Assembly (NCBI RefSeq): GCF_009696175.1 | Contig: NZ_VUMM01000020.1 | Coordinates: forward strand, 1 to 32,830 | Source: Floccifex porci | GTDB lineage: Bacteria > Bacillota_I > Bacilli_A > Erysipelotrichales > Erysipelotrichaceae | Reading direction: 5' to 3' | DNA length: 32,830 nucleotides | Shown here: positions 4,282 to 12,912 of the stretch, in pieces | How the letters are laid out: each line of letters opens with the position of its first letter | Numbering within the stretch: position 1 is the stretch's first letter | Program-made: the position numbers and the translations under genes | The notes under the pieces: model-generated | Seen by the model: only the letters and a program-made list of their open reading frames with translations | Database searches by the model: none | Told to the model about the DNA's origin: nothing

Positions 4282-4339
4282 TTCGTTTCATATATTCCTA
4301 TACTGAAATCAGATAAGAATATGCTGGAGGTGAAACGAA
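4282..4339 (+). promoter_or_regulatory. Long-range stem next to the transposase ribosome site
   Basis: TTCGTTTCA (4282-4290) is perfectly complementary to TGAAACGAA (4331-4339), which directly abuts the Shine-Dalgarno GGAGG (4326-4330) of the transposase gene. Folding would bury the initiation region unless ribosomes or other factors open it. Function is inferred. Confidence 0.35.
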
Positions 4340-4341
4340 CT

Positions 4342-5787
4342 ATGAACGATTCTTACGATAATACAATCACCATATGTAATACTTTCGGTCTTGAAATAGA
4401 CTGTATTGAGTCATGTACAAGTATCGTTAGAAACAAACAGGTGGTTATTGAACTTAAACTGACGGACAAAAGACCACCATGTCCTGATTGTGGCAACGAG
4501 TCTGTCAAAATCAAGGGATATGTAGCTAAAAAAATCAATAATTCCATTCTAAATGATAAGGGATGTGTTCTTGTATACCATGCCAGACGCTATATTTGTC
4601 CAATCTGCCATACAACCTATTATGAAATCAATCCATTCGTATTCAGAAGGATGAAGATATCTTCTTCTATCATTCTTTGTGTGATGAAAGATCTCACAAA
4701 ACCTAGCGAAACATTTGTATCTATTGCAGAAAGATATCATATATCGCCTACAACTGTAGCTTCTATATTTGATGCGACGGTAAATATTCCAAGGGCGAAA
4801 CTGCCAAGGATTATGTCTACAGATGAAAACTACGCATTCTATTCACAGGATACACACAGTAAATATGTTTGCGTACTGATTGATCAGCAGACTGGACGCC
4901 CTATCGATATTCTTCCTAGTAGGCGCTATGATTATCTAGATGAATATTATTCAAAAATTCCAAAATACGAAAAGGATCAGGTTGAATTTATAGCTACCGA
5001 TATGTACGAACCATATAGAAGGATCATACGAAAACACTTTAAACATTCACTTCATGTAGTGGACCGTTATCACGTAGCACAGGAATTGAACCGAAAAGTA
5101 GATTCAATACGACTAAGAATCATGAAACCATATGGATGTATCAATTATAAGGACAGGACGCAGGAACAAAAAGATGCCTATTACCTGCTTAAACATCAGA
5201 ACAGATTCCTCTTCAAACATTTCAGCAATGCGATGTGCAAAGATAAAAAGAGACTGTTCGATGTAACTCGAAAAAGATATTATAATGCACATTTCAGAGC
5301 CTATCTGAATCCATATGATATAGCACAAAAGTTGGTATCTATTCATCCGGATATCAACAAAGCCTGGGAGTTAAAGGATGAAGTCACGGATTTTTATGTT
5401 TCGAATACAGTCAAAACAGCCCCTGAAGCCATTGAAAAAGTCATCAAACATCTTAGAGAAAGTAACATTGAAGAACTGGTGGCATTCAGTAAAACATTGA
5501 GTAATTGGAAAGTTGAAATCATTAACTCATTCTGTATATCAAAAGCTGAATATAATGTATCGAAAGACACAGGAGAAATTACTGTAGAACAGAAAAGAAT
5601 CAACAATGCACTGATGGAGAATCGTAATGCGATCATCAAATTGGTTACAAAAGCAGCTAATGGCTATCGCAATTGGGAACGATTCAGAAACAGATGTATG
5701 CTGGTCTTAGAAAAAGGTATTGATTTTGAAATCGACAAGGATGACGGAAGCGTTAAAATGGTTGAAAAAATGGACCCAGACAACTAA
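4342..5787 (+). CDS. ISL3-family transposase
   Basis: A 481-residue DDE-type transposase that mobilises the surrounding element. The N-terminal zinc-binding region has CPDCG (about residues 46-50) and YICPICHTTYYE (about 84-95). A helix-turn-helix follows (SIAERYHISPTTVASIF). The catalytic core starts with the first aspartate in STDENY, continues with the second in FIATDMYEPYRR and the typical HVVDRYHVAQELNR helix, and ends with the ISL3-like ANGYRNWERFRNRC. The start at ATG 4342 is chosen because GGAGGTGA lies 9-16 bases before it. The frame is open upstream to 4321 but without a ribosome site. The protein appears intact. Confidence 0.9.
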   Translation: MNDSYDNTITICNTFGLEIDCIESCTSIVRNKQVVIELKLTDKRPPCPDCGNESVKIKGYVAKKINNSILNDKGCVLVYHARRYICPICHTTYYEINPFVFRRMKISSSIILCVMKDLTKPSETFVSIAERYHISPTTVASIFDATVNIPRAKLPRIMSTDENYAFYSQDTHSKYVCVLIDQQTGRPIDILPSRRYDYLDEYYSKIPKYEKDQVEFIATDMYEPYRRIIRKHFKHSLHVVDRYHVAQELNRKVDSIRLRIMKPYGCINYKDRTQEQKDAYYLLKHQNRFLFKHFSNAMCKDKKRLFDVTRKRYYNAHFRAYLNPYDIAQKLVSIHPDINKAWELKDEVTDFYVSNTVKTAPEAIEKVIKHLRESNIEELVAFSKTLSNWKVEIINSFCISKAEYNVSKDTGEITVEQKRINNALMENRNAIIKLVTKAANGYRNWERFRNRCMLVLEKGIDFEIDKDDGSVKMVEKMDPDN

Positions 5788-7503: not shown

Positions 7504-8033
7504 ATGAATCATTGACTGAATCTATATTAAACGTAGGTTCACGCCTTATCGATGATGGATATGATGAATTCATTATGATTACAGCTGACCCCCATGTATT
7601 AAGTACACGACTTGAGCGTACAACTGGCTTTCTGCATACTTTAGAAACAAAAGGAAAAGAATGCAAAACCCATGTTGTAGCCGATGATGTAACAAGTGAT
7701 ACATTACGTGATCTACTATATAATGAATTACGTTTTGGTGTTCGTACCCTAATCTTTGTAGCCAACTGCTTCTTATTACCACGAGTTTATTTGGCATTAA
7801 AAGATTACCGTAACTTGATGCCAAATACAATTGGATTAATTGGCTTTGACAATACAGAATGGACAAACTTCTCGAGTCCAACTGTCACAACAATCGTACA
7901 GCCAGCCTATGATGAAGGCTATCAAGCTGCATTGATCTTAATTGATTCATTAAAAGGAACCAACGAACAGATTCCAAATCAAATCTTAAAGTGTTCTGTA
8001 AACTGGAATGAATCAACCAAACAACACAATTAG
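7479..8033 (+). pseudogene. LacI-family transcriptional regulator, C-terminal remnant
   Basis: The frame is open from after a TAG at 7476 to a TAA at 8031-8033 and encodes about 184 residues matching only the second half of a LacI/GalR regulator. Visible features: DDGYDEFIMITADP, STRLERTTGFLHTLE (typical subdomain segment), and the family-typical GLIGFDNTEWTNFSSPTVTT with a following VQPAYDEGYQAALILID. A complete family member is about 330 residues with an N-terminal helix-turn-helix; that DNA-binding domain and the first ligand-binding subdomain are absent. No start codon has a ribosome site in frame (the ATG at 7504 runs into a stop after three codons). It is most likely inactive. Confidence 0.8.
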
Positions 8034-8218: not shown

Positions 8219-8335
8219 ATGATCAAACGTGAACTATATATGAGTCGCATCCGTCCATTCATAGGAACAGACTTAATCAAAGTCATGACTGGTATTCGTC
8301 GTTGCGGAAATAATGTAAAGTTGAGAATAATGTAA
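8219..8335 (+). pseudogene. AAA/DUF4143 ATPase, 5' fragment (interrupted)
   Basis: Begins at ATG 8219 after a strong AAAGGAGG ribosome site and encodes MIKRELYMSRIRPFIGTDLI and then KVMTGIRRCG, the start of an AAA_14/DUF4143 ATPase up to the middle of its P-loop. After codon 30 (GGA, 8306-8308) the frame enters the RIT element and reads eight foreign residues to a TAA at 8333-8335. The remainder of the gene continues at 11785. Removing the insert gives TGC-GGA-AAG-TCC, that is C-G-K-S, and a single 404-residue protein. The fragment alone cannot be functional. Confidence 0.9.
8305..8310. repeat. Left junction direct repeat CGGAAA
   Basis: CGGAAA belongs to the ATPase codons (TG[C GGA AA]G) and recurs at 11784-11789. 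Next to it on the element side is TAATGTAAAG. It is the probable 6-bp strand-exchange region of the tyrosine recombinases. Confidence 0.65.
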
Positions 8336-8400
8336 AGTAAAGGTTATAAATCCCATAAATAAAGGATCTTTGGCTAAATTACTTTACATTATTTTTTTAT
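8309..8400. repeat. Left terminal inverted repeat of the RIT element
   Basis: Bases 8309-8400 are the reverse complement of 11668-11759 with one mismatch (8354/11714). The repeat contains the motif AATAATGTAAAG twice in direct orientation near the outer edge (8309-8320 and 8326-8337) and once inverted at the inner edge (8382-8393), likely recombinase-binding sites. Confidence 0.9.
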
Positions 8401-9422
8401 TGTTTTTTAGATAGTCTAGTTAAGAAACACATCAAATCATCGTTTTGAATCCAATCTTTATCATTTTTATCAATAATATTTTCATATACATTTTGTAACG
8501 CTTGTAGTTTACTTTCATTGCACACCTTTGCGTAAATTTCTGTTGTTTTCACACTTGAGTGGCCTAAAAAATCACGTATATATATTAATTCAATCCCTAC
8601 TTCTAATAAATGGACGGCCTTCGAATGTCTAAATACATGTGGGTGTACATTAATTGTAATGTTAGCGTTGTTTTTATTAGCTAAATCTACATATTTATTA
8701 ATAATATAGGCAATTCCTGCTCTCGTCAGATTATCTCCACTCCTATTAAAAAATAATGTTTCATACCCTTTATTCTTTTTTGTTTGTATATCAAACTCCT
8801 TTATGTATTTTTTTAATAATTCAGCTGTATGTCCCATCAATGGAATCGTACGCGATTTGTTTCCTTTTCCTAATACTTTGATTATGGTTTGATTTGAAAA
8901 ATGCACATCATTATATTTTAAACAAATCAGTTCATCAACCCTTAATGCTGCGTCATACAATAATGTTAATAAAGTTTTATCTCTTAAACCCATAAATTTT
9001 TTATCATCTATCACTGATAATAATATTTTTATTTGATTTTTGGTTAACCACATTACTTCTTTACTACAGAACTTCTTTTTCTTAATGGATAAGATTTTTT
9101 GATATTCATATATGTGTGCTGGATCTTCAATTTGTAGGTATTTTACGAAACTGTGAATAGCGGCTAAACGAATATTTCTGGTGGTTATAGATACTTTTCT
9201 ATCCGATTCGAGCCAGTTTAGAAATTCATACACTGTATTTCTATTTAGATTTTCAAGTGTCACGTAATTTGCAGATACACTTTTTTTCTCCTGCATATAT
9301 ATGAGAAACAATTTATATGTATCCGCATAAGATGCGACAGTATTTTTACTTAAATTTTTATTGGTGATCATTTCTTCCTGTAAAAATTTGGATAAATAAT
9401 ATTGAAAAGTTTTATTTGACAT
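8397..9422 (-). CDS. Tyrosine recombinase, third gene of the RIT element (RitC-like)
   Basis: A tyrosine-family site-specific recombinase of 341 residues from ATG 9422 (346 if the ATG at 9437 is used). The N-terminal SAM-like core-binding domain covers about residues 5-105. Counting from 9437, the catalytic set is complete: R166 in DAALRVDEL, K191 in LGKGNKSR, H267xxR270 in HPHVFRHS, H293 in LGHSSVKTTE and nucleophile Y302. The ATG at 9422 is preferred because GGTGAT lies just before it. The gene overlaps the upstream recombinase by 11 bases (26 with the earlier start), which implies translational coupling. Its stop lies inside the terminal inverted repeat. Confidence 0.9.
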   Translation of the reverse strand: MSNKTFQYYLSKFLQEEMITNKNLSKNTVASYADTYKLFLIYMQEKKSVSANYVTLENLNRNTVYEFLNWLESDRKVSITTRNIRLAAIHSFVKYLQIEDPAHIYEYQKILSIKKKKFCSKEVMWLTKNQIKILLSVIDDKKFMGLRDKTLLTLLYDAALRVDELICLKYNDVHFSNQTIIKVLGKGNKSRTIPLMGHTAELLKKYIKEFDIQTKKNKGYETLFFNRSGDNLTRAGIAYIINKYVDLANKNNANITINVHPHVFRHSKAVHLLEVGIELIYIRDFLGHSSVKTTEIYAKVCNESKLQALQNVYENIIDKNDKDWIQNDDLMCFLTRLSKKQ

Positions 9423-10383
9423 CTTGATCACCGCCATAAAAATATATTTCTGTTTTGTGGATAATATCTGGATATAAATCAGCTGTTAACCTTAGATAAT
9501 ATTCTGTACACCTTGTATCCCTGTGTCCCATATATGCACAAAGATACGGGAATAATGCTGTAATATCTTTTTTATCCAGTACCCATATTTTTAATCTGTG
9601 TACACAAAATGTATGCCTAAATGAATGGACTCTTGGCCCTCCTTGGGGATGTGGGATTCCAGCTAATCTTAAGAATTTTAAAAAAAAGAAATCAACCGTA
9701 CTTTTATCCAAATGCACATTTTCATTTTTACCTTTAAATAAATATCCATTAGAAATTAAGATGTTTTCATGAATAATGTATGTTTTAAGGATATTCATCA
9801 TATTTACATGTATTGGAATTATTCTTTCTGAATGATTTTTGGCGTTCAATATGGTAAAAGTATTGTTTTCAAAATCTATATTTTCCAATTTTAAATTTAG
9901 TACTTCACTGATTCTCATTCCTGTAGAATAAAGAATTCGAAAAATCACTGTGTATTTATACCTCTGTGGATAGTATTGACCATCTAAAGATTTTGATACA
10001 GACCACTCGTCAATAGCTGTGAATATTCTTTTTATTTCATCTTCTGTAAAAATATAGGGTATAAAATCACTTCTATAAGAATTTTTTGGCAAAGGCGGAA
10101 CTATATATGCATCATAATCCATTCGGATCATATATTTTGCAAGTTCTCGGATGATTCGTACACGGTGTGTTCTGCTTATGGGCTTTTCATAGGCTTTTTT
10201 TGCTGTATATGATTGTACAAATTCTTTAGTAATCACAATATCTTTTAAACCTACAGATAATGCCAATTTATCGATATCTCGTAAATACCTTTCTTCAGTT
10301 TTATAATCGAATCCAAGTGAACGCTTTTCTTTTAAAAAGCCAGAAATAACATCTTTTAAAATGCTAGAAAATACATATTTCAT
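9412..10383 (-). CDS. Tyrosine recombinase, second gene of the RIT element (RitB-like)
   Basis: A 323-residue tyrosine recombinase. The core-binding domain spans about residues 5-100 and the catalytic domain 110-310. Catalytic residues visible: R157 in STGMRISEVL, K182 in LNAKNHSER, H253xxR256 in RVHSFRHTF, H287 in YMGHRDT and tyrosine at 295/296 in TEYYLRL. The longer stretch between HSFRH and MGH (KIWVLDKKDITALFPYLCAY) is a feature I associate with the middle gene of recombinase trios. The start ATG overlaps the stop of the upstream recombinase as ATGA (10380-10383). The protein looks intact and probably acts together with its two neighbours. Confidence 0.9.
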   Translation of the reverse strand: MKYVFSSILKDVISGFLKEKRSLGFDYKTEERYLRDIDKLALSVGLKDIVITKEFVQSYTAKKAYEKPISRTHRVRIIRELAKYMIRMDYDAYIVPPLPKNSYRSDFIPYIFTEDEIKRIFTAIDEWSVSKSLDGQYYPQRYKYTVIFRILYSTGMRISEVLNLKLENIDFENNTFTILNAKNHSERIIPIHVNMMNILKTYIIHENILISNGYLFKGKNENVHLDKSTVDFFFLKFLRLAGIPHPQGGPRVHSFRHTFCVHRLKIWVLDKKDITALFPYLCAYMGHRDTRCTEYYLRLTADLYPDIIHKTEIYFYGGDQDVK

Positions 10384-11621
10384 AAATCGAACACCCTGTC
10401 TGGATCAATTGGACATTTTGATAATTCATTCATATTTAGTTTTAAATATGTTTCTGTTGATTTGATCGATTGATGTCCCAATATTTGTGAAATCATTGGA
10501 AGACTTGTTTCTTTTTCTAATAGTAAAGTTCCTAACGTATGACGTAGCGAATGAATACCATACTTTTTCCCAGAAATAATTTTTATGCCGGAATCGCGCA
10601 GTCTCCTTGTAAAAATAGAGCTGATTCCACTAGGAGTCAACGGCAGAAATGGCGCTCTGTGTTCCAAAAATAAATATTCACTTTCAATTTGCGGCCGAGC
10701 ATTTTTGATATAATCAATAATAGACCAGCCAAGATTGTTTAAAAGTGGAAGTGTAAGATTTTTGCTGGTTTTTTCTTGTGTTATAAAAATCATTTTCTTT
10801 TCCCAATCTATGTTGGAAAGTTTTAAATTAGCGATATCTACTGAACGAAGTCCTAAACAAACTGCCAATAATAATATCGCATAATCGCGTTTTCCTGCGA
10901 TACTTTCTTTATCAATTGAATCCAAAAGAATTTTAACTTCTTCCTGTGTAAATGTATTTGATATTTTAGTTTCATGTACAGTGTTTAAAATAGGAAATAA
11001 TTTAGAAATGTCCATCGAACACAACTGATTCTCATAACAGTATTTAAAAAACTGTTTCAAATCAGATATGTTGTGAGAAACACTTTTTGGTGTTTCATGT
11101 ACAAAGGTTGATATTATGGCTTCTACATTTTTTCTTGTAATATCGTCAAGCAAAAAAACATTATGTCTAACTAAAACTTCAACACACTTTTTTACTACAT
11201 ATTTCTTTCGATTCACTGTACGTTCTTTATAATCATAGTTATCAGAAAGATATTTGATAAATTTATCATTGATACTTTTCCAATACTCATTTTCAATCTC
11301 ATCAACAAACCTAGAAAATCTTAAAATAAATAACCTATTGATTGAATAATTGCTTAACAATCGCATAGCTCTTAAAAGAACAATATATTTCTTTGTGTTT
11401 TTACCATCATGAGCTAATTCTGTCAATTCTAATCCGGTAATCAAATTTACATATTCTATCGCAACATTCATGTCAAAAAAATTGACTCCTATATTGTCAC
11501 AATAGATTGTAAAATCAGTAAAAATCTTTCTGTAAGCATGCATAGAAGACTCACTGTAATTTTTGGAACGCATTATTTCTAAAATAGAATCACTGCATTC
11601 TTTGATTGTAGTTTTTTGCAT
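10380..11621 (-). CDS. Tyrosine recombinase, first gene of the RIT element (RitA-like)
   Basis: A 413-residue tyrosine recombinase, first in the three-gene operon, with a strong ribosome site (AAGGAGGAT) before the ATG. The N-terminal half is longer than in XerC/D-type enzymes and seems to contain two helical parts (about 1-115 and 116-215). The catalytic domain has R259 in LGLRSVDIANL, K284 in TQEKTSKN, H357xxR360 in IHSLRHTLG, H383 in LGHQSIKSTE and nucleophile Y392. The three recombinases differ clearly from each other in sequence, which fits the trio family rather than a recent duplication. Transcription must start between 11621 and the inverted repeat or inside the repeat. Confidence 0.9.
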   Translation of the reverse strand: MQKTTIKECSDSILEIMRSKNYSESSMHAYRKIFTDFTIYCDNIGVNFFDMNVAIEYVNLITGLELTELAHDGKNTKKYIVLLRAMRLLSNYSINRLFILRFSRFVDEIENEYWKSINDKFIKYLSDNYDYKERTVNRKKYVVKKCVEVLVRHNVFLLDDITRKNVEAIISTFVHETPKSVSHNISDLKQFFKYCYENQLCSMDISKLFPILNTVHETKISNTFTQEEVKILLDSIDKESIAGKRDYAILLLAVCLGLRSVDIANLKLSNIDWEKKMIFITQEKTSKNLTLPLLNNLGWSIIDYIKNARPQIESEYLFLEHRAPFLPLTPSGISSIFTRRLRDSGIKIISGKKYGIHSLRHTLGTLLLEKETSLPMISQILGHQSIKSTETYLKLNMNELSKCPIDPDRVFDL

Positions 11622-11667
11622 TTTTATCCTCCTTTTGCAGTATTAACCACAAAAGAAGTATTCACAT

Positions 11668-11759
11668 ATAAAAAAATAATGTAAAGTAATTTAGCCAAAG
11701 ATCCTTTATTTATAGGATTTATAACCTTTACTTTACATTATTCTCAACTTTACATTATT
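11668..11759. repeat. Right terminal inverted repeat of the RIT element
   Basis: Partner of 8309-8400 (91 of 92 positions complementary). It contains AATAATGTAAAG at 11675-11686 and its inverse CTTTACATTATT at 11731-11742 and 11748-11759. It lies about 47 bases upstream of the first recombinase gene and may contain the operon promoter. Confidence 0.9.
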
Positions 11760-11763
11760 ACCA

Positions 11764-11783
11764 TTATGTAAAGCTTTACATAA
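11764..11783. repeat. 20-bp perfect palindrome at the right RIT end
   Basis: TTATGTAAAGCTTTACATAA is fully self-complementary and carries two further head-to-head copies of the TGTAAAG motif. It lies between the inverted repeat and the CGGAAA junction and has no counterpart at the left end. Confidence 0.85.
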
Positions 11784-11789
11784 CGGAAA
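11784..11789. repeat. Right junction direct repeat CGGAAA
   Basis: Second copy of the junction sequence. Here it is followed by ATPase codons (GTCCGTC) and preceded by CTTTACATAA, which mirrors TAATGTAAAG beside the left copy. Confidence 0.65.
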
Positions 11790-12912
11790 GTCCGTCATGT
11801 TAAAGCTAATTCAACAAGAGCTCACGGAGTCTGGTATCAGTCCAAAACAATTTATCTCTATCAATTTTGAAGATATGAACTACTCCCACTTACAAACTGC
11901 ACAAGCACTGCATGATGAAATCCGTGCAAAAGCCTCAGAAATGGAAGGCAAAATTTATCTATTCTTTGATGAAATACAAGAAGTCAAGGACTGGGAAAAG
12001 TGTATCAACTCTTTTCGTGTATCATTAGATTGTGATATTTACATCACAGGCTCAAACGCAAATCTACTATCTAGTGAACTAGCAACTTATTTGGGTGGTC
12101 GATATGTAAAATTTGTGATATATCCATTTTCTTTTAAAGAGTTCATGGAACTATATCGTTCGATTACTCCTGACGCATCCATTCAGCAATGTTTTCAAAA
12201 ATACCTTATTGTCGGAGGTATGCCTTACCTTTCAAACATTCGTTATGCAGAGGCTCCGTCTAAACAATATCTTCAAGATTTATTCAACTCTGTTCAGCTC
12301 AAAGACATCATGAAACGAAATAAAATTCGCGATGTTGATTTGCTAGAACGAATCATTACCTATGTGATTGCGAATGTGGGAACAACTTTTTCTGCATCCT
12401 CACTCGCAAAGTTTTTAAAAAGTGAAAGGCGAACTGTGTCTCCAGAAACGATTTTGAACTATATCAAGTATTGTTGTGAAGCTTATTTATTCTATCAAGT
12501 GAAACGAGAAGATTTGCAAGATAAGCAAATTCTTTCTTCTAATGAAAAATATTATATTGCCGATCACGGTATCCGTGAGGCTATTTTCGGTGGTAATATG
12601 CGAGATATCAATCTTATTTTAGAAAATATCGTATATCTAGAATTATTGCGCCGGGGATTTGATGTAACTGTAGGAAGAAATGGGAATAAAGAAATAGATT
12701 TTGTATGCAACAAACAAGACGAAAAAATATATGTTCAAGTTACTTATCTGTTGGCATCCCAAGAAACAATTGATCGTGAATTTGGTGCTTATGATCATAT
12801 TAAAGATAACTTTCCAAAGTACGTTGTTTCTCTTTATGAGTTTAACATGATCCAAAATGGCATCAAGCATCGAAACATACGTGATTTCCTACTAACAAAT
12901 GAATGGAACTAA
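11785..12912 (+). pseudogene. AAA/DUF4143 ATPase, 3' part (interrupted)
   Basis: Continues the gene begun at 8219. From GGA at 11785 it reads G-K-S-V-M-L-K for 375 residues to the stop. The Walker B motif is IYLFFDEIQ with EVKDWE after it, followed by the ITGSNANLL sensor region and SFKEFMEL, all typical of AAA_14 ATPases. The C-terminal part is DUF4143-like, with YIADHGIREAIFG, EIDFV and IYVQV (a PD-(D/E)XK-like fold in this family). This solitary ATPase family is widespread and often of unknown function. The internal ATG at 11797 has no clear ribosome site, and any product would lack the P-loop, so it is probably inactive while the element is in place. Confidence 0.85.

Follow-up and report, generated by a model that had tools for sequence, protein, structure and literature searches.

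Recombinase-in-trio (RIT) elements have been known since 2009, with examples in Cupriavidus CH34 and pHG1 (Van Houdt et al. 2009/2012, PMC3414803), while the reason for their three recombinases, their insertion sites and their movement had stayed open. A palindrome, and the occurrence of RITs within transposase and radC genes, were noted earlier (PMC3414803, PMC2864759), and a 2023 table gives RIT target specificity as not formally tested; RIT transposition has never been reproduced (PMC10214605). Two better-studied groups offer points of comparison. The Tn554 family combines tyrosine recombinases with a 6-bp junction word, the donor's bases replacing those of the target at one end (PMC10214605). 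The strand-biased circularizing integrative elements (SE/GInt) are multi-recombinase elements with a circular intermediate and a 6-bp footprint from the donor side (PMC10214605). In a literature search that did not cover subscription papers, we found no P-loop or codon-motif target rule for RITs, although one may have been described elsewhere.

For Tn554-like elements, neither a symmetrical palindromic joint nor a P-loop codon target has been reported to our knowledge. Tn916-type elements also carry 6-bp coupling sequences between sites, but, unlike the element described here, they rely on a single integrase with Xis and insert into AT-rich targets that are only loosely defined. This element lies in a 32,830-nucleotide stretch of Floccifex porci DNA (contig NZ_VUMM01000020.1), which we call the window. 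Like the described RITs, it has three distinct tyrosine recombinases in the order A-B-C, a size of about 3.5 kb, no cargo, and terminal inverted repeats with an adjacent palindrome. It differs from them in the length of its repeats, about 90 bp against a stated 28-34 bp (PMC3414803), and in having a target that can be defined, the Gly-Lys codons of a Walker A motif. Whereas Tn554 consists of TnpA, TnpB and the non-recombinase TnpC, the window element has three recombinases and lacks the Tn554 gene set. SE/GInt elements have four core genes, including non-catalytic Tfp/GinC and Srap/GinD, none of which is present in the window element. The RIT words do fit the 6-bp word exchange at integration that is typical of SE and Tn554-like elements.

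The repeat unit spans 8305-11783 (3,479 bp; Table 1). All three genes between the repeats match the Phage_integrase catalytic domain, and there is no fourth gene. Among three plasmid trios, pHG1 included, the best matches of P0001, P0002 and P0003 are RitA, RitB and RitC, respectively; identities to the pHG1 RIT proteins are 28, 30 and 36%. The ritA and ritB genes overlap in the sequence ATGA (10380-10383), and ritB and ritC overlap by 26 bp, which is longer than the usual RIT overlap of 4-8 bp. An earlier note on this DNA had named the element a RIT with a 92-bp repeat. The repeat is present, but it is an inverted one of about 90-95 bp, 98% complementary. As for the RIT identity, gene order, family assignment, size, repeats and palindrome all support it, and the pHG1 ends are alike; judged by sequence comparison, the element is a true RIT. 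We found no further copy in its own genome, despite several DUF4143 homologues there, and none in other members of the genus.

Table 1. Features of the RIT element and of the ATPase gene that it interrupts (window coordinates).
Feature	Coordinates	Strand	Basis or remark
5' fragment of AAA_14/DUF4143 ATPase gene (MIKRELYMSRIRPFIGTDLIKVMTGIRRC + GK codons)	8219..8310	+	joined frame, empty-site alignment
Left target-side six-base junction word CGGAAA, [C GGA AA] of TGC-GGA-AAG-TCC	8305..8310	+	sequence
Terminal inverted repeat, ritC side	8311..8400	+	repeat comparison and end signature
Arm motifs TAATGTAAAG in ritC-side repeat	8311-8320 and 8328-8337	+	inverted copy near inner end of repeat
ritC-like tyrosine recombinase, 346 aa, P0003	8397..9437	-	
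ritB-like tyrosine recombinase, 323 aa, P0002	9412..10383	-	
ritA-like tyrosine recombinase, 413 aa, P0001	10380..11621	-	
Terminal inverted repeat, ritA side	11668..11757	-	repeat comparison and end signature
Inner six-base word TGGTAA [T GGT AA]	11758..11763	-	read as trace of earlier P-loop insertion
Perfect palindrome of 20 bp, TTATGTAAAGCTTTACATAA, formed by two back-to-back arm motifs	11764..11783	.	sequence
Right six-base junction word CGGAAA	11784..11789	+	sequence
3' part of ATPase gene (GKSVMLK...; AAA_14 then DUF4143)	11784..12912	+	joined frame
Intact tail ORF of interrupted ATPase gene	11797-12912	+	

When 8305-11783 is excised in silico, an uninterrupted ORF of 404 aa runs from the ATG at 8219 and reads MIKRELYMSRIRPFIGTDLIKVMTGIRRC-GKS-VMLK.... 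Its Walker A motif is GIRRCGKS, and the element sits inside the Gly-Lys codons, flanked on both sides by CGGAAA, so that the insertion and the restored frame are as the earlier note had described them. The search of related genomes for the uninterrupted ORF that the note had proposed succeeded in two genomes of the same genus, whose intact genes encode products that match residues 1-403 of the joined product with 76.7% and 75.9% identity; the second gene contains a single in-frame stop. In both, the parts aligned to the window's 5' flank (up to 8310) and to its 3' flank (11785 onwards) lie directly next to each other and overlap by only the 4-5 bases of the shared junction word, and the palindrome is absent from both empty sites. 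The note's description was thus correct to within a base or two, though it had missed the 20-bp palindrome and the second six-base word (11758-11763). About 2.4 kb upstream of the interrupted gene lies an ISL3-family transposase gene (4321-5787).

The same plan of the ends is common to all trio loci with readable ends. Each inverted repeat opens with two arm motifs of 10 bp, spaced by seven bases, and closes at its inner end with an inverted arm. The plain end consists of a six-base word and an arm; the other end consists of an outer word, a 20-bp palindrome of two arms, an inner word and an arm. This word-palindrome-word end also occurs in the pHG1 RIT and in two Rhodococcus RITs. The palindrome is on the ritA side in the window, L043, L046 and L060, and on the ritC side in L041, L042, L047, L058, L068, L070 and L074. 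In most elements the outer word is the exact reverse complement of the inner; the window, L043, G007 and G021 are exceptions, which leaves strand choice or homogenisation unresolved. Genome G061 has two copies, 99.4% identical over the comparable 332 bp, in two different IstB genes and with the palindrome at opposite ends. Their shared sequence ends at the outer word, and we therefore place the element boundary there. The pair suggests that the joint of a putative circle is symmetrical, with the order repeat-word-palindrome-word'-repeat. Donor and target differ in the six-base word in the G061 pair and in four other elements: in L041 the donor word is TGGAAA and the target CGGAAA, and in L042, L047 and L070 the target word is unlike the donor words beside the palindrome. 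Hairpin copying was set aside as the palindrome's origin, since in the reverse transcriptase clade (below) the palindromes are imperfect yet the words are exact reverse complements.

Two loci have unusual ends. L054 (G040:C72, 879-4294, reverse strand) is a RIT with a 20-bp palindrome at both ends and words that pair crosswise (GTGCAA/TTGCAC and GTGGTG/CACCAC); group II intron domain V is represented by one and the same half on both flanks, as if an inversion had taken place between two insertion sites. L104 (G007:C43, about 7866-7897) is a palindrome without repeats or recombinases, at which a DUF4143 3' half (AGGTAA) is joined to unrelated sequence beside TGGAAA. It is possibly the scar of an excision or inversion.

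We searched 316 genomes of the order for the end signature TWATGYAAAG-N7-TAATGTAAAGTA (arm-N7-arm) and recovered the window and, for the same RIT clade, 10 more insertion sites, together with two chance matches. All 10 lie at Gly-Lys codons of a Walker A motif in the N-GGN-AA register, which bears out the P-loop junctions that the earlier note had asked to be looked for in other copies; in G007:C43, the palindrome without repeats, the P-loop gene is clear on one side only. The targets are of the DUF4143/AAA_14 type in G007 (C87+C49 and C43), G044, G092, G108, G111 and G128, and genes for IstB, the IS21 helper, in G020/G021, G061:C3 and G061:C4. At 99.9% identity, the elements of G020 and G021 may represent a single insertion passed on by descent. 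Pfam confirms AAA_14 or IstB for the longer gene halves; the short 5' fragments (23-61 aa) fall below Pfam detection and were assigned to a family by eye. The IstB 5' halves end at PF01695 position 102-103 and the 3' halves start at 104; the AAA_14 3' halves resume at model position 14. Of 20 six-base words, 19 fit NGGNAA, for which the background rate is 0.45% per position, and all four bases occur at both wobble positions. Inner words, interpreted as remnants of earlier sites, fit too: TGGTAA (window), TGGAAA (G061) and CGGCAA (G021), and the sole word off the pattern is the G007 inner word, ACGAAA. Lone terminal repeats in P-loop genes at L098 (G108:C202, 5370-5451) and L100 (G128:C27, 7478-7560), from which the recombinases have been lost, are read as decayed insertions.

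Outside the order, a class-wide search with the signature gave only matches with two mismatches, no more than the reversed-pattern control. L083 and L090, each with two mismatches, were rejected as chance matches. No RitA was found in viral contigs, and the single viral match to the pattern (L097) is a repeat of the G061:C3 site.

The amount of sequence recognized must extend beyond six to eight bases, since the core GGNAARWC occurs 1,242 times in the element's own 2.02-Mb genome against 1,000 in the control, a frequency near chance. This rules out GGNAARWC alone as a target rule. When the occupied sites are summarized in a looser 29-base consensus, it has 19 matches in the same genome and its reversed control has none; 18 of the 19 are Walker A motifs of genuine-looking genes, among them (named by eye) those for ATP synthase alpha, RecD-like, PriA-like, ABC, ClpC-like and FeoB proteins. 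Within these computed matches, a wobble-blind DNA pattern does prove to be in practice a P-loop detector. The consensus was derived from P-loop sites, and its recovery of P-loops is partly circular; with the half-sites available (9 + 6), conservation of the DNA around the target is indistinguishable from conservation of the protein. The proposal that Gly-Lys codons are the target holds for every recovered site of the clade, but these codons alone are insufficient. Likewise, the expectation of many sites in any genome is met by the possible sites, but only two apparently dispensable families are seen to be occupied.

The simplest explanation of this restriction to AAA_14/DUF4143 and IstB is that insertions survive where the gene is dispensable, though recognition of particular families remains possible. 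If these families were targeted through a longer sequence of their own, with the P-loop register incidental, the failure to see other families would follow naturally, given that 18 of the 19 consensus sites in the window's genome belong to the Walker A motifs of many families. We regard this as unlikely, though deserving of consideration: the junction DNA of AAA_14 and IstB shares little beyond the P-loop codons, yet the same Gly-Lys codons are hit in both, and the restriction would also arise if hits in AtpA, RecD, PriA and similar genes were lethal. Insertion might instead be wide, with the short core NGGNAA sufficing and P-loop genes seen only for being common and in part dispensable. The core is indeed short and degenerate, and the families hit are probably non-essential or multicopy. 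Set against the abundance of GGNAARWC in the genome, however, the uniform placement of the clade's 11 independent sites, every one of them in a Walker A motif and in one codon register, leaves this reading strongly disfavoured and very improbable.

Two other readings deny either the targeting or the boundary. The near-identity of the G020 and G021 elements could be taken to mean that one ancient insertion, or homologous recombination, spread a single interrupted gene without active targeting. We give this almost no credence: it is refuted by the differing target genes, and the six-base words differ too; the two G061 copies have different IstB genes and opposite palindrome ends, and intact alleles exist in species of the same genus. 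That the palindrome and inner word belong to the host or the target rather than to the element, a reading to which the variable ends noted in older RIT descriptions (PMC3414803) lend some color, is scarcely more credible, as both G061 copies share palindrome and inner word and differ only from the outer word outwards, the palindrome is present in all clades examined, and the two empty sites lack it. We consider it highly probable, from these comparisons of sequence, that the window's clade integrates site-specifically at the Gly-Lys codons of Walker A motifs by way of a circle with two core sites. Movement of the element is inferred; none was observed, and only the G061 pair represents closely similar copies in one genome. 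The empty sites, the differing target genes and the two G061 copies are in line with mobility.

We propose that the recombinases would form a circle in which the joint has the order repeat, word, palindrome, inverted word, repeat. Such a symmetrical joint would provide two equivalent core sites, each an arm, a 6-bp overlap and an arm, and exchange of either with the P-loop word of a target would give an insertion with the palindrome left at one or the other end. The exchange would be a tyrosine-recombinase reaction of the Tn554/SE type with a 6-bp overlap, in which mismatches would be tolerated mainly at wobble positions. Integration would take one new word from the target and leave the old donor words as footprints, as in Tn554 and SE, and by analogy with these, donor bases would replace those of the target at one end (PMC10214605). 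How the words on the palindrome side come to be reverse complements is not known; an exchange of the two inverted core sites with each other would have this effect. The target would be read as DNA over more than six bases, at codon positions that protein conservation holds constant, and insertions would persist only where loss of the ATPase is tolerated.

For other trios of the order, joining the flanks restores ORFs broken at other conserved motifs. L042, L043, L045-L048 and the Rhodococcus L126 interrupt a group II intron reverse transcriptase at (A/P)QG^(G/S)P(I/L)SP; L068, L074 and L076 interrupt an rve transposase at YHGN^SKGKIER; and L070 interrupts an ABC transporter Walker A motif at VG^PSGCGKST. 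Assigned by eye are an IstA-like catalytic-E region (L060), QVDW catalytic-D codons (L057, L064) and group II intron domain V RNA (L053, L054, L058), with matches to intron D1-D4 nearby in L054 and L058. In a RitC tree of about 32 elements, support is 100/98 for the P-loop clade and 100/99 for each of the reverse transcriptase, domain-V and rve groups; the reverse transcriptase group includes L056, whose target differs. Since RitC clades group by target, the target motif looks largely inherited within RIT clades.

Several further RITs were noted. One in Rhodococcus opacus pR1CP1 (L127, 3687-8309) lies in the apparent catalytic-tyrosine region (TYTYWY) of another tyrosine recombinase gene, and the ritC-side flank of one in an uncultured Clostridia MAG (L006, 263-3040) resembles, by eye, an IS110-type transposase at the conserved RRKSD. 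A single-contig genome (G023:C1) has three ritA matches of equal length and score (756977, 1370815 and 2404634), one of them (L071) in an apparent ISL3-type transposase; this suggests a recent multiplication.

The analysis provides a target rule for RITs, together with exact boundaries, footprints and a testable circle model. The proposed mobile element exploits, as DNA, a protein motif that is among the most conserved, where selection bars mutation of the target and the recombinase ignores synonymous variation. On balance, and with less assurance than for the P-loop clade, we favor the wider view that RITs are motif-reading transposons, each clade being specialized on the DNA of one ultra-conserved motif in a wobble-tolerant way, with mostly rival mobile elements as targets and a symmetrical joint that would provide two interchangeable integration sites. 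The motifs would be the P-loop GK codons, the reverse transcriptase QG(G/S)P, group II intron domain V, and the catalytic D or E codons of IS21 and rve transposases. Trios with differing natural motif specificities could help to explain how tyrosine recombinases evolve new target sites. If the motif-reading view is true, RIT clades find targets that are unable to evolve away.
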